NCBI GenBank assembly: GCA_000381625.1
Contig: KB906767.1
Location: 5,934,462-5,998,461, forward strand
Direction: 5' to 3'
Length of the DNA stretch: 64,000 bases
Source: Bryobacterales bacterium KBS 96
GTDB lineage: Bacteria; Acidobacteriota; Terriglobia; Bryobacterales; Bryobacteraceae
The notes under the pieces are model-generated. The model made no database searches and had not been told where the DNA came from. It worked only from the letters and a program-made list of their open reading frames with translations. Positions 4,807-35,430 of this stretch are shown in pieces (position 1 is the stretch's first letter; the number at the start of each line of letters is the position of its first letter). The position numbers were made by a program, and so were the translations under genes.

Positions 4807-6060
4807 TTAAGCCCTGCAGTATTGCGATTCGACGGTTGGCCGGTAATTGACCTTCAGATGAGGCGTTTCGAGGCGTTTCTCGTCCTGTAGTTTCGATGTT
4901 AGGCAGCTTTCGAGAATCCCGCTCGTTAGCAACGTTCGATCGATCGAATAGGGCGCTTTCCGGGTGGTAAACATCTGCTCAATTTTTGAAACCAGGCATG
5001 CCGAGTACGTCACGTTCGGAACCGGCGTGAGCAGAAATTGCGTGGAGACCAGCCCTTTGCCACGGACGCGCGCGGAGAAGTTGAAATCCTCGACGGCGCC
5101 GGTCAGCATGAGCATCGTCGCGCGGAAGCCATCGCGATATTCGATGAGATACGCAGCCGGATGAGGAACCAGTCCCGGCAGCACGCCCGAGCCGACCAGA
5201 TCCTGCGTTCGGCCGTCCTTTATCGTCAACCCCATCGGCGTATCACTGCGGGAGAGCGCGGAACTGAGCAGTCCTTTCGACCAGACCCCCTTGTCACCGG
5301 CCTCCCAAACTTTGTTGCCGGTGATCATCTGGACCGCTTTGACGCCCGTCTCGCCGCCCTTGCGCCGCTCGACCATGCATTGAAGCGCTTCCAAAGCATG
5401 AAAATCCATCGCGTCGGAACCGCCGACGCCCACCATCACCGCATCCTCGATATGAGCATCCAGAGGCATTTCGACATCGGGGAGACGCCACGTCACCGGC
5501 AGCGAAGAACCGCCTAGCATCGGGAAACCGAGTTCTTTCGAAGCCGCGACCATCTTCGACGCTTTCTCGAAGCTGTATGACAGGTGCTTATCGTTGTAGA
5601 CCGGGACGGCGCGACCGCTATCGCGAAACACTTTCGTTGCTTGTTCGAAGAACTCATAGCGCGGATAAAGTATCTGGCCTTTTTCGTTTTTGGGATAGTC
5701 GCCATGCTCGCCAACAATCAAAACCGCGTCGCAGGCGAGGCTCTTGCCCCCGCAACAAATCGCTTCGGCGACGGTTGGATAGACGCGAAATCCGAATTCG
5801 CGAGCGCGCGCCTCGCTGAGATCGCCCTCCGGTTTTTGATCGACGTAGAGCGAGACGACTTTCACGTTCGGCTGATGCCATTCGCCGTTGTGCGGATAGC
5901 CAACCAGAAAGCGATCGCCGATGTGCTGGCCGTGCGACAAATACTTGTAAACCGTCGTCACCACGGCAATCCGTAGCGGTCCGTTTGGAGCCGCGCTTGC
6001 CCGGGCCGCCAGAACCGGGGCCAAGGCAGTGGAGGCGAGAAAATTGCGCCGGGTGATCAT
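4807..6060 (-). CDS. Tat-exported protein of an uncharacterised family (paralogue 1)
   Basis: The 417-residue product starts at 6060 with a Tat signal, MITRRNFLASTALAPVLAAR, cleaved near ASA-AP. The ATG shares a base with the previous gene's stop (TAATG) and has GGAG six bases upstream, so translation is coupled. The mature protein shares long blocks with its upstream neighbour: GEHGDYP, KHLS, SSLPVTWR, QCMVERRKGGETG and ERTLL. An N-terminal alternating pattern (IAVVTTVYKY, DAVLIVGEHGDY) suggests a Rossmann-like fold, loosely like Gfo/Idh/MocA proteins, but I see no clear nucleotide-binding glycine motif. Function unknown; context suggests carbohydrate or sugar-acid metabolism in the periplasm. 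Confidence 0.8.
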   Translation of the reverse strand: MITRRNFLASTALAPVLAARASAAPNGPLRIAVVTTVYKYLSHGQHIGDRFLVGYPHNGEWHQPNVKVVSLYVDQKPEGDLSEARAREFGFRVYPTVAEAICCGGKSLACDAVLIVGEHGDYPKNEKGQILYPRYEFFEQATKVFRDSGRAVPVYNDKHLSYSFEKASKMVAASKELGFPMLGGSSLPVTWRLPDVEMPLDAHIEDAVMVGVGGSDAMDFHALEALQCMVERRKGGETGVKAVQMITGNKVWEAGDKGVWSKGLLSSALSRSDTPMGLTIKDGRTQDLVGSGVLPGLVPHPAAYLIEYRDGFRATMLMLTGAVEDFNFSARVRGKGLVSTQFLLTPVPNVTYSACLVSKIEQMFTTRKAPYSIDRTLLTSGILESCLTSKLQDEKRLETPHLKVNYRPTVESQYCRA

Positions 6061-7265
6061 TACGTTCTCCAAAATGTGGACTCTCGCCGCGGCTCATACC
6101 GTATCGCCAATTGCGGCGTATCGATGCGTGTCTGATTTCGATATAAGCTTTCGACTCCCGCCGCCGTCAGTCCGGTTGTCAGCAGAGTTCTTTCAATCGG
6201 GTATGGCTCTTTATGAGTCAGCATCATGCCTTCAATGTGATGAACCAGCGGGCTGAAGAAATCCGCGAGCGTCGTTCGCCCGTCCGGCATCGGCAGGTAC
6301 ATCTGCGTGGACAGAATGCCGGAAGGCTGCTTCATCCGGGCCGCGAAATTGAAATCCCGGATTAGTCCGTTCATTAGCAGCATCGTGCAGCGCAATCCAT
6401 CGTTGTATTCGTACGTGTAGGCGACCGGCTTCTTGACAAGTTCGCGCATTTGCTCGCGCGTTGGGAAGATGTCGTTGAATCCGGGGCGCGCCGGCGTCAG
6501 CGTGTGGCTGCGGCAGAGTGCCGCCTTCATCAGATCGTACGACCATGCGCCCTCCTTCATCGCGTCCCAGAAGCGATCGCCGCGATAGGCCTGCAGCGAG
6601 CGCACGCCCGTCTCACCGCCGGCGCGGCGCTCCACCATGCATTGAACCGTTTCGAGGCCATGAAAATCGTAGCTATCCACGCCGCCGTAGCAGACGCACA
6701 GCGCTTCGCTCACGGAAGATTTCCAGGGCATGTCAATCGATGGAATACGCCAGGTTACCGGCAGGCTCGACCCGGCCATGAACGGGAAGCCCATGCTTTT
6801 CGATGTGTCGTACATCTGCTTGGCCCATTCCCATTTCCACGAGAGGTGCTTGTCGCTAAACAGCGGCACGCTTCGCCCGCTCGACTTGTACACGGAGACA
6901 ATCTGCTCGAAAAATTTGTAGCGCGGATATTCGGTCTGCCCCATCTCGTTGTGAGGGTAATCGCCGTGCTCGCCTACGAGGACCACGCCGTCGACAGCGA
7001 GCTTGCTGCCGCCCCGCGTTAATGCTTCCGCAATGGTTGGATAGATTTTCATCGCGGGGAAGCGAGCGGCGCGCTCGTGGCTTAGATCGTCTTTCCCGAC
7101 CTGATCGACATACAAAGCGACCAAGTCCATGGGCGGATGATGATATGTTCCGTTCCAACCGTAGCCATCGAGCAATCTATCGACGATGTGCTGCGCATGA
7201 GAATACTTGCGATAGACGGTGATGACCGCCGCAATTTTCGGGCGGTCATGAGTAGTTTCTGGCAT
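6060..7265 (-). CDS. Uncharacterised protein, cytoplasmic paralogue of the Tat protein next to it
   Basis: This 401-residue protein has no signal peptide (MPETTHDRPKIAAVITVYRK) but aligns along its whole length with the Tat-exported product of the next gene. Shared blocks include SHAQHIVDRLLDGY, LVGEHGDYPHNEMGQ, SDKHLSW, SSLPVTWRIPS, QCMVERRAGGETG and ERTLLTTG. The pattern of a tandem duplication with one exported and one retained copy is clear from the sequence. I do not recognise a characterised member. The two genes are joined by a TAATG junction, and 15 bp separate this gene from the DUF362 gene upstream. Confidence 0.8.
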   Translation of the reverse strand: MPETTHDRPKIAAVITVYRKYSHAQHIVDRLLDGYGWNGTYHHPPMDLVALYVDQVGKDDLSHERAARFPAMKIYPTIAEALTRGGSKLAVDGVVLVGEHGDYPHNEMGQTEYPRYKFFEQIVSVYKSSGRSVPLFSDKHLSWKWEWAKQMYDTSKSMGFPFMAGSSLPVTWRIPSIDMPWKSSVSEALCVCYGGVDSYDFHGLETVQCMVERRAGGETGVRSLQAYRGDRFWDAMKEGAWSYDLMKAALCRSHTLTPARPGFNDIFPTREQMRELVKKPVAYTYEYNDGLRCTMLLMNGLIRDFNFAARMKQPSGILSTQMYLPMPDGRTTLADFFSPLVHHIEGMMLTHKEPYPIERTLLTTGLTAAGVESLYRNQTRIDTPQLAIRYEPRRESTFWRT

Positions 7266-8462: not shown

Positions 8463-9803
8463 TCAGTAATTCTGGAATCCCGCGCGCTTCAGCCCTACTG
8501 TCGCTTCGCGGTTTTTCATAAACGTGCTCCACACGAAGCTGGTGCGAAGATTCTCGGCCATCAACATCGTGATGCCCGTATCGATGCCGATCACGTCCGG
8601 GTCGTACCAATTCTTAAGCGGGTTGAATGCATTAACGAACCCGTAGCGGCTCCATGCGTGTGTCCCATATTTTTCTTTGATGTTTTTCAGCACCTGCAGC
8701 GTCGGCTGCGGCAGAAACGCCAGCGAGCCCCCCGTCGCGCTTGGGACTACGGATCCGTCAATCGGCCCCATCTCCGGGGGGCCGCCCCAGATCACGTAGC
8801 CGTGTTGCGAATCTGAGGCGGTAATGCCCCACAGATCGTTGCTGTAGTCGGGAAATTGCTTCGCCAGCTCCAGGCAGAACCGCCGGTGCGCTTCGGTTGC
8901 AATCGCCGAATTTTTGAAGTAGTCGGCGTATTTGTCGCGTTTGCCGCGGAAGTCGAACCACGCTTGCGAATACTGATGTACGAACAAGGGCGCAAACGAG
9001 CCGATGTACCGGAGTCCGTCGTATTCAAAAATCGTTCGCTTCCAGGCGTTCCATGTTTCAGCAGGCAGAGGATGCGTCGAGGATCCGAGCCCCAGCAGAT
9101 ACATCATCATGAGTTCGCTGTAAAGATCCCAGCGATAGGGCAGAAAGCCGAGATCGGGCAGCCAGCCTTGCGGCAGAAGCGAGGTGTCCTCAGAAAGCCA
9201 ATTCCATTCGACGCGATTGAAAATCTGCCGGGCCAGGCGCGTAATATCGGCGTGCCCGAAATGTTGACGGCACGTCAGCACGCCGCAGAGCAGGATTGCG
9301 GTGTCTATGGAAGAGAGCTCGGAGTCCCACGTTCGGTCCCCAGTCTTCACGTTGGCCCAATGGTAAAAAAATCCGCGGTGTGCGGGCATCTTCTTCCAGA
9401 GAAACTGCAAGGTTGCCAGCACGCGGTTCCGGGCGTCGGCATGCGAGATATATCCGCGCTTCTCGCCGATGCAAAGGGCGGTAAGGCCGAACCCGGTCGC
9501 GGCGATGCTCGCCACAACCGTCTTGTCGGTCTCCCGTACATTGCAGCGATCTTTGATAAGTCCCGTTCCGGGGTCGCCTTGGTCCCAAAAAAACTGGAAA
9601 TTCGCTTTCTCCAGGTCGTCCAGGAACTGATCGTCTTCTTTTGACAGCGTGAAACCTGTGGGCGGTGTCCAAGGTTTAGGAGGTTGCTGTTCTGCCGCGG
9701 CTTCCAGTACGGCGGGCCCCAATAGGGCGCCAGCCGCCATGCCGCGCAGCAGCCCGCGCCGCGAAACCAAATGGCTATCGATGTGTTTGGCCTCCACCCA
9801 CAT
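8463..9803 (-). CDS. Tat-exported glucoamylase-like protein (glycoamylase family)
   Basis: The start at 9803 gives 446 residues with a Tat-type signal, SRRGLLRGMAAGALLG, ending near LEAAAEQ. The ribosome binding site is weak, so the start is uncertain. The body matches the glycoamylase-like (PF10091) alpha/alpha toroid proteins: FFWDQGDPGTGLIKDR near the start, FYHWAN and WDSELSSIDTA in the middle, LWGITASDSQHGY later, and a C-terminal IDTGITMLMAENLRT. Relatives act on beta-glucans or cyclic glucans. It is the first gene of the minus-strand run down to the MFS transporter and should act in the periplasm or outside the cell. Confidence 0.75.
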   Translation of the reverse strand: MWVEAKHIDSHLVSRRGLLRGMAAGALLGPAVLEAAAEQQPPKPWTPPTGFTLSKEDDQFLDDLEKANFQFFWDQGDPGTGLIKDRCNVRETDKTVVASIAATGFGLTALCIGEKRGYISHADARNRVLATLQFLWKKMPAHRGFFYHWANVKTGDRTWDSELSSIDTAILLCGVLTCRQHFGHADITRLARQIFNRVEWNWLSEDTSLLPQGWLPDLGFLPYRWDLYSELMMMYLLGLGSSTHPLPAETWNAWKRTIFEYDGLRYIGSFAPLFVHQYSQAWFDFRGKRDKYADYFKNSAIATEAHRRFCLELAKQFPDYSNDLWGITASDSQHGYVIWGGPPEMGPIDGSVVPSATGGSLAFLPQPTLQVLKNIKEKYGTHAWSRYGFVNAFNPLKNWYDPDVIGIDTGITMLMAENLRTSFVWSTFMKNREATVGLKRAGFQNY

Positions 9804-28510: not shown

Positions 28511-29527
<1,017 letters not shown>

Positions 29528-29545
29528 ACTAGTCTCTAAGGTAAA

Positions 29546-29567
29546 GCGGGCGACGCGCCTCGCCCGC
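29546..29567. repeat. Hairpin between gap and the toxin-antitoxin pair
   Basis: GCGGGCGA (29546-29553) and TCGCCCGC (29560-29567) are perfect complements around the loop CGCGCC. It may mark the 3-prime end of the gap mRNA, but there is no T-run. Confidence 0.55.
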
Positions 29568-29579
29568 AAACCCGACGAC

Positions 29580-29816
29580 ATGAACGTGGCTGTCAATCCT
29601 TACGTCTCACGCATCACGATTAAGCCGGGTGTGCGTTCCGGAAGGCCGTGTGTTCGCGACACACGCATAACGGTACAGGAGATACTTCGCTGGCTTGGTT
29701 CAGGCGTAACGGAAGAAGAGATCCTGAGCGATTATCCGTATTTAGAGAAGGATGACTTCAAAGCCGTCTTTGCCTACGCGGCGCAGTTTCCGGATGCCAG
29801 GGCCTCCGGACTGTGA
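29580..29816 (+). CDS. DUF433 antitoxin
   Basis: With the ATG at 29580 the protein has 78 residues. It matches DUF433, a VapB-like antitoxin family: ITIKPGVRSGRPCVRDTRITVQEILRWLGSG is the helix-turn-helix-like core, followed by TEEEILSDYPYLEKDDF. Such antitoxins neutralise a PIN-like ribonuclease and repress their own promoter. The toxin gene starts inside its stop (GTGA), a typical module arrangement. The pair lies 52 bp after gap, with a hairpin in between. Confidence 0.85.
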   Translation: MNVAVNPYVSRITIKPGVRSGRPCVRDTRITVQEILRWLGSGVTEEEILSDYPYLEKDDFKAVFAYAAQFPDARASGL

Positions 29817-30151
29817 AGTTGCTGTTCGATGCCAACTTATCACCGAAGTTGGTTCTTAGGCTCGCGGGCTTATTCCCGGATTCAGTTCACCTTTTCGATC
29901 TTCCGTTGCCCCGCGACGAAGACGATCGCGTAGTTTGGGAATACGCAAGAGCGAACGGATACGATATCGTTACCACGGACGGAGATGATTTTCCCCCATT
30001 GGTGCGGCGGTTCGGTTCTCCGCCTCGTGTAATCCTGCTTGAGAGCTGGCAATTTCCGACCCGCGTTGCTGAAGAGTTACTGCGGGCGAACTCGATTCTG
30101 ATCGCCGAGTTCGCCCGCGGCGATAAAGGATTATTGATCCTCAGACGTTAG
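29813..30151 (+). CDS. DUF5615 PIN-like toxin
   Basis: The 112-residue product starts with GTG at 29813, overlapping the antitoxin stop. It fits the DUF5615/Mut7-C-like family of the PIN superfamily: LLFDANLSPKLVLRL at the start, then WEYARANGYDIVTTDGDDF with the acidic cluster (Asp7, Asp in TTDGDD) expected to bind metal, and RVILLESWQ. It is likely a ribonuclease toxin paired with the DUF433 protein. The cellular target cannot be inferred. The convergent GH27 gene lies only 8 bp away. Confidence 0.82.
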   Translation: MKLLFDANLSPKLVLRLAGLFPDSVHLFDLPLPRDEDDRVVWEYARANGYDIVTTDGDDFPPLVRRFGSPPRVILLESWQFPTRVAEELLRANSILIAEFARGDKGLLILRR

Positions 30152-31794: not shown

Positions 31795-32038
31795 AGAATT
31801 GTCGAGGAGCCGGGCGGGGCGCCCGGCGCAGGCCAAGGGCCCGCCCACAAGCAAATGCCCGAATCTGGAAAATTGAATGGCATGGGCTCTTAGCGGCTCT
31901 TAGCCTGCAGCCTCAAGACTCGTCTCGACGGGCGTTTGCGCGAGATGCCGCGTGTCGAGATGAATCTCGGCACCGCAGACACGAGTGTCCGCGCCACCAT
32001 CGACAGCAGCTTATCGGTTTTTTGTTCCTGCTCGCGTA

Positions 32039-32078
32039 GCGCACGTCTTCAGCGTGCCCGCGGCAAACTTCAGTTCGC
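32039..32078. repeat. Partial copy of the composite palindrome
   Basis: GCACGTCTTCAGCGTGC and then AACTTCAGTTCGC repeat the left half of the element at 19075-19165, with the same spacing. Confidence 0.6.
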
Positions 32079-32152
32079 CGTTATGCTGGGACTGCTCGTA
32101 GAGACAGACGTCAATACTGGCCGGCAACTCCAGGCTTGGCTGCGACGTCCGT

Positions 32153-32737
32153 CTAAATAGGCACCAGCCCCTGCCGCAGGCCCAGCGCCACCGCTTCCGT
32201 CCGCGTCGAAGCACGTAGCTTGCTGAGTATCGACGCCACGTGAAACTTTACGGTGTGATCGCTGATGCCAAGCTGCCACGCGATCTCTTTATTCCCAAGT
32301 CCCTCCGCCAGCATTCGCAGCACCTGCAACTCTCGCGGACTCAGCGGTTCGGACAAACCCGCGGCACGCTGCGAAGCGCGTGGCGTCTCAAATATCGCTT
32401 CCGACTGCGCGGGCGTAATCACCGTCAGCCCCTCATTCGCCGCGACAATCGCGGCGACAATTTCGTTGGGAGCAGCGCTTAACGGCAACCATGCTCGCAC
32501 CGGTCCTGCGTGCTCCCATCCGTCGAACGGCTCGTCGTTGAGCAGCACGACGGGCACGGCCTCGAACGTTATCTCATCCAGCGCAATGCCGCTCGCCAGA
32601 ATAACATCGGGATGAGCGCTCGCCGCGCCGCCCTCTGAACGAACGCCGATCGTTTCCATGCGATCGTCTTCCGCCAAAAGCGAAGCGAGACCACGTGCAA
32701 ATACAACTGGGGCGGCAATAATCAAAACCCGAATCAC
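32153..32737 (-). CDS. LuxR-type regulator with a degenerate receiver domain
   Basis: The GTG at 32737 overlaps the upstream protease stop (GTGA) and opens a 194-residue NarL-like protein. Residues 1-120 have a receiver fold, but the usual acidic pair is Ala8-Ala9, the phosphorylated aspartate is Ser49 (in PDVILASG), the conserved Thr is Asn67 and the Lys is Leu86. So phosphorylation is unlikely. The C-terminus is an intact LuxR helix-turn-helix (SPRELQVLRMLAEGL, EIAWQLGISDHTVKFHVASI). It is probably activated some other way, perhaps by the protease pair in the same operon. No kinase gene is near. Confidence 0.85.
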   Translation of the reverse strand: MIRVLIIAAPVVFARGLASLLAEDDRMETIGVRSEGGAASAHPDVILASGIALDEITFEAVPVVLLNDEPFDGWEHAGPVRAWLPLSAAPNEIVAAIVAANEGLTVITPAQSEAIFETPRASQRAAGLSEPLSPRELQVLRMLAEGLGNKEIAWQLGISDHTVKFHVASILSKLRASTRTEAVALGLRQGLVPI

Positions 32738-33591
32738 GCAGCGCTCATTAAAGGTGTAGGAACCAGGCGGACGGTCACCTGCCGCTGCGCCTGCCGGCTG
32801 CCGCGAAAGAAGAAGAACCGCACCGTATCGCTCGCGTCCAACACGCTGAACAAATCGGCCGGGGACGCGAGCGGTGTTCCGTTCGCTGCCACAAGTATGT
32901 CGCCGGGCAACAGCGATGCGCATTCGGCCGCGCCTCCGTTGACGAGTTCAAGAACCAAAAGGCCGCGTTGTCTCCTCGCGTCGCTACTCTCAAACGCGAT
33001 CGGACGAACGATAACGCCGAGACTACGAGTGGGTTGGGTTATTATCAGAAATCGTTGAATCGCGGAAGCAGGAATCGCAAGCGCGGGTCCTCCGGCAATA
33101 ATCATCGTATTTACACCGAGCAAATCGCCATGCACGTCCGCGAGCGGCCCGCCGGAATTTCCAGGCGCCAACCGCAAATCGCTCTGAATCCATGGTGTCT
33201 CTCCAAGTCCCCGCAAGCGGCCTGTCGTATAAACGAAACCTTTCGAAACGGCTCCGGCAAATCCAAGCGGATTGCCCACCGCAATGACAGGTTGTCCCGG
33301 TTCTACGGTTGACCCGGCGAATGAAACGGCGGGAGCGTCCAGGCCGTCCGCGCGAAGCAAAGCCAGATCGCGCCGTTGGTCAACCTTCAATACTTCAGCT
33401 TGTTGCGCTGGTCCATTCCATGGTTCGATGCAAACCTGGCTTCCGCGCACCACATGAGCATTAGTCAGAACGCGACCGCCGTTTAGAACAATGCCCGATC
33501 CGCACCCGTGCTCGTAGCCGTCGCCGGTTGTCACTCGTACGGTTGAGCGCCTCAGCAATTCAACTGTGTGCCCTGGAACCGAAAACGGCAT
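32734..33591 (-). CDS. Cytoplasmic HtrA/Deg-like serine protease with a PDZ domain
   Basis: The start at 33591 (MPFSVPGHTVELL) has GGAGG upstream and follows the previous gene by 1 bp. Residues 10-185 form a trypsin-like domain with the full triad: His46 in TNAHVV, Asp75 in RRDLALL and Ser146 in APGNSGGPL. A PDZ domain follows (about 190-280). There is no signal peptide or membrane segment, unlike the usual periplasmic DegP/DegS, so it should act in the cytoplasm. The upstream gene is an inactive-looking homologue and the downstream one a transcription regulator. Confidence 0.88.
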   Translation of the reverse strand: MPFSVPGHTVELLRRSTVRVTTGDGYEHGCGSGIVLNGGRVLTNAHVVRGSQVCIEPWNGPAQQAEVLKVDQRRDLALLRADGLDAPAVSFAGSTVEPGQPVIAVGNPLGFAGAVSKGFVYTTGRLRGLGETPWIQSDLRLAPGNSGGPLADVHGDLLGVNTMIIAGGPALAIPASAIQRFLIITQPTRSLGVIVRPIAFESSDARRQRGLLVLELVNGGAAECASLLPGDILVAANGTPLASPADLFSVLDASDTVRFFFFRGSRQAQRQVTVRLVPTPLMSAA

Positions 33592-33592
33592 T

Positions 33593-34519
33593 TCATTGCC
33601 TCCTCTGGGCGCGCTCCGCCACCAGAATCTCGGTAACCACCGGCGACCCCGCGCGTAGAATCGTGAACCCCACGGCGCTCCCGATTGATTCTCCCCGTAG
33701 GATCGCCTGCAGGTCGTCGACTTCCCGCAATGGTTTCTCATCCGCCGCCAGCAGAATGTCGCCCAAATGAATCCCGGCCTTCTCCGCGGGACTGTCCGAT
33801 TCAACGCTAATCACCATCAGTCCGATCTCGCCGGCTGCCGGCGACTTGCTACGCAGGCGCTCGGGCAGCGGAATCGGTTGTAATCCGACGCCAAGATATC
33901 CATGCCGTATTCGCCCTTCGCGCAAAAGCTCCTGGGCTACCCGATTCAGCGTCGCGAACGGCACGGCTAGCGTCGAATGCCGCAGAAGGGCTGCCGTTGC
34001 CATTCCCCAAAACCGCGTGTTCGCCGAGAACACGCCCGCTCCCGCCTGTGATGGATAGAGGTTTACGTCCAGCCGCAAAAAGCGGTCCAGAGCGCCGCCG
34101 CGCCAGGAACGCCGTGCAGGTCCGACCGCGCCCAGAATGCCGGCGCTTGCCGAAAGCCCGGAGTCGATTGTCCGTCCCGTCACAATGGCGAGCGCGCCCG
34201 GCCTCATCTCGGAATCCTCCTCGGGCGTCACGGGGGTCAGCGCGTCTTGCTCCAGTCCCAATATCGCCAGATCCAGCGTTGGATCGCGCCCGAGAATAGT
34301 CGCCTCCACCCGTTCGCCGCCGGGTAAGTGTACTGGGATCTTTCCTTCCCGCCGCACCGCATGATCGTTCGCCGCAATCAAATTTCCAGCAATGGCTACT
34401 CCGCTCGTCACGCGATAGGCTGCTGCCTGAATCGCCACTACGCTTCGCCCGGTCTCGTCGATCAACTTGGACAGAGCGGCGGAATACCCGCTCAGGTCGA
34501 ATTCGGAAACTGCATTCAT
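33593..34519 (-). CDS. HtrA-like pseudoprotease with a PDZ domain
   Basis: The ATG at 34519 gives 308 residues (a GTG at 34543 is an alternative) and no signal peptide. The fold is that of HtrA: a trypsin-like domain with His53 (in ANDHAV) and Asp83 (in PTLDLAIL), then a PDZ domain from about 215 (GYLGVGLQPIPLP, SDSPAEKAGIHLGDILLAAD). At the nucleophile position the usual GNSGG reads SQAGAG, so the Ser is Ala159 and the protein should not cleave. It may bind and present a partner or control the active protease encoded 1 bp downstream. Confidence 0.85.
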   Translation of the reverse strand: MNAVSEFDLSGYSAALSKLIDETGRSVVAIQAAAYRVTSGVAIAGNLIAANDHAVRREGKIPVHLPGGERVEATILGRDPTLDLAILGLEQDALTPVTPEEDSEMRPGALAIVTGRTIDSGLSASAGILGAVGPARRSWRGGALDRFLRLDVNLYPSQAGAGVFSANTRFWGMATAALLRHSTLAVPFATLNRVAQELLREGRIRHGYLGVGLQPIPLPERLRSKSPAAGEIGLMVISVESDSPAEKAGIHLGDILLAADEKPLREVDDLQAILRGESIGSAVGFTILRAGSPVVTEILVAERAQRRQ

Positions 34520-34602
34520 ATCTACAGTCTGCTCGTGCTCCACCGACGCTGCATCCGCCGGTTGGCTAGGCTGCCACCCGGATCTTCAGCCAGCCGGCGC
34601 CA

Positions 34603-35430
34603 TCAAGTGTCGACAGTTGGACTGGCATTGAGCAACCGGTCAGCGGCCCGCAACACTTCGTCCACGCCGATGGCGTCCATCGAGTCGCCGCGAATCACTG
34701 CGACGTTTTCTCCGCGCGGAGCCCATACCTGCGGATCGCTCGCGCCGAATAACGCGATCGCGGGAATGCCGGTTGCCGCTGCAAGATGCGTGATGCCCGA
34801 ATCGTTGCCGATGAACAGCCTCGCCCCGGCGATCCATTCGGCGAGCGAGAGCAGATCGTCGAAGTGTCGTGCCCGCGCCAGTTCTTCCTCCGGTCCGGAA
34901 GTCCACGCGACCGGCCGCTTCAGCCGGCAGGCCAGTTCTTCAAATCGATCAAGAGGCCAATTCTTCCGCTTGCTGCCGGAAAAAGGATGGATGATTACTT
35001 CGTCTCGAACCGGCCCTTCGGGAGTTTCGATGCGTGGCGCGAGTCCCATCGGCGCGCCTGCCTGCCGAGCGAAGAAATCAATTGCGTGAATCGCGTCCCC
35101 GGCTCCGGGCAGCGCCCGGAAAAACCGCCAGTTCCCATTCAGACGCAGCGCCGCTTCGCGAAACTCCGGCCGGTTCGACCCGTACCAGCTTACGATCGAA
35201 TCGAAGTTCGCCAGCATTTCACGCAGCGCGGCGGGCGGATCGCCTTCCGCTACGCCGAGCAGATCGAGTCCAGTGTCCGGGAGAGCGCGGACGCGATCGG
35301 CAAATTGAACCAGCGGTACGAGCGCGGACGGTATCCACACCTCCGTGTATCCCGCGCCAAGATAGTCCATCGCCGGAAAGCAGGTCAAACAATCGCCAAT
35401 TGCCCCCGGCCGAACCAACAGACGCCGCAT
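34603..35430 (-). CDS. Glycosyltransferase family 9 (heptosyltransferase-like) protein
   Basis: The 275-residue protein matches GT9: LLVRPGAIGDCLTCFPAM at the start, the mid-region VIIHPFSGSKRKNWPLDRF and the sugar-nucleotide site FIGNDSGITHLAAATGIPAIALFGASDP. GT9 enzymes add heptose or another sugar to the inner core of lipopolysaccharide. It is shorter than most heptosyltransferases (about 320-350), mainly in the N-terminal half. It lies just 9 bp from the DsbD-alpha gene on the same strand, which may be fortuitous. Confidence 0.87.
   Translation of the reverse strand: MRRLLVRPGAIGDCLTCFPAMDYLGAGYTEVWIPSALVPLVQFADRVRALPDTGLDLLGVAEGDPPAALREMLANFDSIVSWYGSNRPEFREAALRLNGNWRFFRALPGAGDAIHAIDFFARQAGAPMGLAPRIETPEGPVRDEVIIHPFSGSKRKNWPLDRFEELACRLKRPVAWTSGPEEELARARHFDDLLSLAEWIAGARLFIGNDSGITHLAAATGIPAIALFGASDPQVWAPRGENVAVIRGDSMDAIGVDEVLRAADRLLNASPTVDT

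Follow-up and report, generated by a model that had tools for sequence, protein, structure and literature searches.

HtrA proteins are quality-control enzymes of the cell envelope and NarL-type regulators are switches driven by kinases, which raises the question of what two soluble HtrA-like proteins do in one operon with a NarL-type regulator whose receiver is disabled. The three genes lie on the minus strand of the window (the whole stretch of DNA analyzed, 64,000 nucleotides from Bryobacterales bacterium KBS 96): HtrA-B (33593..34519), HtrA-A (32734..33591), and the regulator, referred to as R (32153..32737). In agreement with a preceding sequence-only reading, the first two were separated by a 1-bp gap and the last two shared a GTGA overlap. 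A scan of positions 32000-34700 for promoters and terminators gave nothing exceeding shuffled sequence. Upstream of HtrA-B, 83 bp away and in the same orientation, lies a gene (34603-35430) that we take to be glycosyltransferase-9/heptosyltransferase-like; its family was not recurrent in three or more of 24 clustered loci (see below). Two small overlapping genes on the plus strand (29499-30151) presumably correspond to a DUF433/DUF5615-type pair, possibly a toxin-antitoxin.

Both window HtrA proteins possessed the trypsin-like and PDZ domains of the HtrA/DegP family (S1C): Trypsin_2 (E 2.8e-18) and PDZ_2 (E 9.3e-14) in HtrA-B, and Trypsin_2 (E 9e-25) and PDZ (E 4.1e-5) in HtrA-A, with profile matches to DegP, DegQ, DegS, and AlgW. 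The His-Asp-Ser triad of S1C was found in HtrA-A as His46, Asp75, and Ser146 (with the motif GNSGG), all three invariant in a 10-row family alignment, while HtrA-B retained His53 and Asp83 but carried Ala159 in the column of the catalytic Ser; the assignments made by the sequence-only reading were thus correct for both proteins. So was its claim that both lack a signal peptide: a simple Kyte-Doolittle scan detected no N-terminal hydrophobic segment that could serve as the export signal or membrane anchor of S1C proteins. The same scan, which is not a trained predictor, revealed no signal-peptide-like stretch in 140/140 B and 139/140 A open reading frames of relatives. According to the part of a survey available to us, 11.16% of microbial PDZ proteins are cytoplasmic (PMC6411480).

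The AlphaFold2 model of HtrA-B (14-row alignment) had a mean pLDDT of 81.0. Its PDZ domain contained a carboxylate-type loop (GYLGV), and the corresponding pattern X-Phi-G-Phi was conserved in 136/140 B proteins, which may bind C-terminal peptides in the manner of DegS-type sensors. B and A were distinguished by profile margins, with profiles built partly from the same sequences. Arg116, present in the window HtrA-B, was found in 129/140 B but in 0/140 A proteins, and, among the rows of the triad comparison, GNSGG occurred in no B protein and in nearly every readable A protein. No open reading frame fusing B with R, or two HtrA proteins, was found among the 140 B loci of Acidobacteriota and Myxococcota, the A-only loci, and the 31 Chloroflexi-type loci.

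R was matched by the GerE helix-turn-helix family in Pfam (E 4.3e-21), with no match to Response_reg in the same scan; its receiver was instead assigned from the R-family profile, which aligned with full-length VraR (5hev, profile 1-198, E 2e-32). In the AlphaFold2 model (three-row alignment; mean pLDDT 64.1), the helix-turn-helix reached about 87-96 and the receiver about 28-72. R may contain a receiver fold without the phospho-Asp, as judged from the VraR match, set against the low confidence of the modeled receiver and the absence of a Pfam receiver. None of the residues characteristic of two-component receivers (phospho-Asp, acidic pair, Thr/Ser, and Lys) was present in window R, as had been stated previously: they were replaced by Ser, Ala-Ala, Asn, and Leu, respectively. 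Whether these losses are conserved, which the sequence-only reading proposed checking, depended on the residue: the acidic pair and the Lys were each kept in 0/111 aligned regulators, but an Asp persisted in the phospho-Asp column of 54/111. In seven Acidobacteriota loci outside the window family, the receiver was reduced to a stub, and all seven had a degraded B triad; since they cluster in one part of the B tree, they may represent a single event. No kinase-like family was recurrent in the 24 clustered loci; a kinase could be unlinked.

The window genome contained 18 GerE matches in 6.7 Mb. Window R ends in LVPI, and a Phi-x-Phi-COOH end, on a 15-residue tail of fixed length, was shared by 110/111 module regulators and by 0/16 other LuxR-type regulators of the window genome. 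The tail was considered as a ligand of the PDZ domain and rejected, because the same end was found in 16/30 regulators from module-less Myxococcota genomes (and in 3/30 from module-less genomes of the window family); it is largely a property of the helix-turn-helix subtype and was not counted as evidence of docking. Among the LuxR-type regulators of module-less Myxococcota genomes, one subgroup (L339, L347, L354, and further members of L336-L365) shared RTHLEHIY.K...NRVEA together with the exact Phi-x-Phi C-terminus.

The first search (60 relatives) located full-length HtrA-B relatives in 10 other genomes of the window family and a cut copy in an 11th, with HtrA-A and R adjoining HtrA-B in most of them. 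Further searches gave HtrA-B matches in at least 68 of 200 genomes of the window family at E 1e-60 (the lowest few being A-type), at least 131 of 396 genomes of the window phylum at E 1e-50 (largely ordinary HtrA proteins; 30 stretches from 28 genomes were read, 15 of them with B), at least 101 of 195 Myxococcota-type genomes at E 1e-60 (66 loci read, 60 with B), and at least 91 of 301 Chloroflexi-type genomes (31 loci read, nearly all with 1.5-kb flanks); on plasmids, 5 of 46 matching records were read. All locus counts refer to the loci read among the matches listed. An R-type gene was present in the stretch read at 136/174 HtrA-B loci: 62/65 in the window family, 15/15 in other Acidobacteriota, 34/60 in Myxococcota, 22/31 in the Chloroflexi-type, and 3/3 B-type plasmid loci. 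For Acidobacteriota and Myxococcota together, R was found in 111/140 B loci versus 0/23 loci containing only a stand-alone A-type HtrA. The gap between R and B or A was 300 bp or less in 104/111 cases and 430-2059 bp in the other seven, whose R genes may be unrelated to the module.

The conservation of the neighborhood, which the sequence-only reading proposed checking for three genes in one order, was borne out across phyla as a linkage between HtrA-B and R that recurs in several gene orders. In the window family (65 loci), B-A-R predominated (54), followed by B-R (8), B-A (2), and B alone (1), while other Acidobacteriota (15) had B-R-A (7, with A in either direction), B-R (6), R-B (1), and R-B-A (1). 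Myxococcota loci with R were R-B-A (25), R-B (5), or R-B-A with a reversed R (4), and those without R were B-A (22), overlapping A and B (2), or B alone (2). The Chloroflexi-type loci (31) comprised B-A-R (12), B-A (8), B-R (8), R-B-A (2), and B (1). Among the plasmids, those of Paraburkholderia sprentiae (pair WP_027194870/WP_027194871) and Bradyrhizobium sp. Ash2021 carried B-R and that of Rubrobacter indicoceani B-R-A, while those of Rhizobium gallicum and Sinorhizobium chiapasense carried an A-type HtrA only, without R. Clustering of the 24 loci disclosed no other regularly shared neighbor: the remaining families found in at least three loci were overlapping frames of the same genes and a family of about 800-910 amino acids in four loci, presumably an ABC-type permease.

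The stand-alone HtrA proteins without R (L134, L135, L138, L139, L143-L146, and L150-L156) had an intact triad with GNSGG, and apparently form a cytoplasmic HtrA group of their own within Acidobacteriota. The 26/60 Myxococcota B loci without R in the stretch read were for the most part B-A pairs whose triad was intact (for example, L165-L178, L208, L209, and L211-L214, mostly in genomes of 9-13 Mb), and inspection of four loci without R showed no LuxR gene next to B; loss or relocation of R may explain its absence from the B-A pairs. In the wider set of Myxococcota B-A pairs, Gln replaces the His of the triad in L219.

One rival account of this linkage is that R merely regulates its own HtrA operon, sensing a small molecule or nothing, while B and A are quality-control enzymes that make no contact with it. 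It is common for a regulator to act on the operon beside which it is encoded, and the Myxococcota loci that do without R are consistent with such an arrangement; however, it leaves unexplained why the receiver is disabled in 111/111 regulators and why R is linked to B and not to stand-alone A-type HtrA, and we regard it as unlikely.

Regulated proteolysis is likewise an improbable explanation: HtrA-A, with the help of B, would degrade or trim R, and a stress that diverts the protease would raise the level of R. A was intact wherever it could be read, often beside B and R, and DegS and AlgW, which the HtrA profiles matched, are PDZ-gated relatives; the accessible part of one study also reports the cleavage of VgrS by an HtrA-type protease (PMC6237974). 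On the other hand, R was absent from all of the A-only loci, and 20 loci had B and R without A in the stretch read: 12 with a dead B and 8 with an intact one (L131, scored as lacking A, contains at 5720-6136 a short fragment resembling HtrA, with the end of the contig about 380 bases away). The Bradyrhizobium plasmid adds one more dead B (E/D/Q) with R and without A. Control of the regulator by the active protease, proposed by the sequence-only reading, is therefore not required everywhere, the dead-B loci without A being the counterexamples.

The triad was intact in all 138/138 readable A proteins. In contrast, among the B proteins of Acidobacteriota and Myxococcota (n = 139), 87 were intact and 52 had lost it, with diverse substitutions. 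L094, in which HtrA-B is interrupted by an internal stop (2314-2940) while the other genes are kept, was excluded from the triad counts; L091 has a short HtrA-A (8711-9256), also with the other genes kept. Intact B triads were found in 33/64 window-family, 7/15 other Acidobacteriota, 47/60 Myxococcota, and 31/31 Chloroflexi-type proteins, and the plasmid B triads were HDS in Paraburkholderia, E/D/Q in Bradyrhizobium, and P/G/G in Rubrobacter. Ala159 of the window protein, whose conservation the sequence-only reading had proposed checking, was accordingly not conserved, since the triad is intact in most relatives. When the 119 non-redundant B proteins of Acidobacteriota and Myxococcota were placed on a quick tree after removal of the triad columns, at least 20 changes between the intact and lost states were required (17 for Ser alone); many forks of this tree were weak, and the counts do not indicate the direction of change. 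Within the window family, B was dead in 7/8 loci without A and in 22/53 with A (Fisher p 0.022, ignoring shared descent). A dead B is thus a recurrent option, and the module is better defined as HtrA-B together with a phosphorylation-blind R, usually with HtrA-A.

This pattern recalls the magnetosome proteins MamE and MamO, and B might be a trypsin fold repurposed for other chemistry (metal or ligand binding), as MamO is. In the available part of the relevant paper, inactive HtrA copies arose independently in several clades of magnetotactic bacteria, MamO (inactive) promotes events that need the triad of MamE, and its activation requires its own TauE domain (PMC4794232). The present module parallels this system in that one of two paired HtrA proteins has repeatedly lost its triad, in the magnetosome case while still being needed, and in that an active and an inactive copy share one locus. 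However, the MamE/MamO system as described there has no regulator and a magnetosome setting, whereas the window-type HtrA proteins are soluble, linked to R, and distributed in many phyla. In addition, most B proteins keep the triad, and the NCBIfam scores of HtrA-A (81.9 bits for MamE and 31.7 for MamO) and HtrA-B (38.1 for MamE) were far below the cut-off of 800, making this explanation a poor candidate.

The remaining explanation, a decaying locus in which Ser and the receiver residues were lost by drift, can be discarded: the mixed residue states among relatives suggest it, but the linkage over several phyla contradicts it, as does the dN/dS of 0.06 for B when the window is compared with its nearest relative, which also carries Ala159. 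In this comparison (Nei-Gojobori, one pair), the values for R and A were 0.10 and 0.22, respectively. B, which had the lowest value in the operon, is subject to strong purifying selection despite its dead triad and is not decaying. Other triad-lost pairs gave a B dN/dS of 0.10-0.25, similar to intact pairs, although one intact pair stood out at 0.51 and one pair gave no usable dS. The sequence-only reading had allowed for decay if homologues kept the Ser and phospho-Asp or the neighborhood was not conserved; Ser was indeed often kept, whereas the neighborhood proved to be conserved and the receiver always disabled.

A role in defense was also rejected: PADLOC gave no match for B, and the weak matches of A (RT-Protease_XI, 2.8e-11) and R (CARF3, 6.8e-9) are attributable to shared protease and helix-turn-helix domains.

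We favor the interpretation, with a probability of slightly under one half (roughly 0.45), that the locus encodes a standalone cytoplasmic cassette for signaling or proteostasis, in which B controls R by contact and A is an optional protease partner. HtrA-B would be the core partner of R, its trypsin fold and PDZ domain functioning as a sensor or adaptor that binds a cytoplasmic ligand, such as the exposed C termini of misfolded or unassembled proteins. By binding its ligand, B would hold or free R, presumably with an effect on target genes, through a protein contact replacing phosphorylation by a histidine kinase. HtrA-A, where present, may be the catalytic partner, perhaps forming mixed oligomers with B or removing clients as a protease. 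The linkage of R to B instead of stand-alone A, the disabled receivers, and the 12 loci with a dead B and no A point to B as the partner of R, and a role of B that is independent of cutting, as proposed here, would account for the repeated loss of its triad beside the kept triad of A. Neither A nor R is obligatory, as indicated by the eight loci with an intact B and R but no A, and by the Myxococcota loci without R, in which B can serve without a nearby R. The non-kinase route suggested by the sequence-only reading hence survives in part: conserved neighbors, disabled receivers, and a B gene that is under selection and not decaying make a kinase-independent route a fair proposal, but Ala159, the catalytic loss on which it also drew, is not conserved.

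Several known systems share one part of this arrangement. DegS and AlgW are PDZ-gated stress sensors; DegS, which is anchored to the membrane and located in the periplasm, targets an anti-sigma factor. The module HtrA proteins have the same protease fold and a PDZ domain with a conserved carboxylate-type loop; in contrast to DegS, they lack a signal segment, and no anti-sigma factor was found among the shared neighbors. R resembles NarL/VraR-type response regulators in its full-length profile match to VraR and its GerE domain, and differs from them in its disabled receiver and in the absence of a kinase among the neighbors shared by the 24 loci. Aspartate-less receiver regulators such as RitR, for which the available text proposes an input other than phosphorylation (PMC4395418), have a receiver without the phospho-Asp, as window R may have; compared with that description, R is linked to a gene for an HtrA-like protein, 54/111 of the aligned regulators keep the Asp without the acidic pair or the Lys, and at least seven retain only a receiver stub. 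A search of the openly available full-text literature, with subscription papers mostly outside its scope, found no description of the HtrA-B/A/R cassette.

The broader proposition, that a cytoplasmic HtrA-fold PDZ protein, whether active or dead, widely replaces the histidine kinase of a NarL-type regulator, and that selection acts on sensing and not on cutting, is more tentative than the interpretation of the locus itself. If true, a conserved pairing of cytoplasmic HtrA-like proteins with a phosphorylation-blind regulator would give response-regulator-like proteins a new route of input. The module also provides a natural experiment on pseudoenzymes, because the B position lost its triad many times and the neighboring paralogue A never did so in the readable set, and it is present over several phyla, including named cultured bacteria. 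The recurrence of an HtrA pair with a phosphorylation-blind regulator across these phyla points to an undescribed route of gene control.
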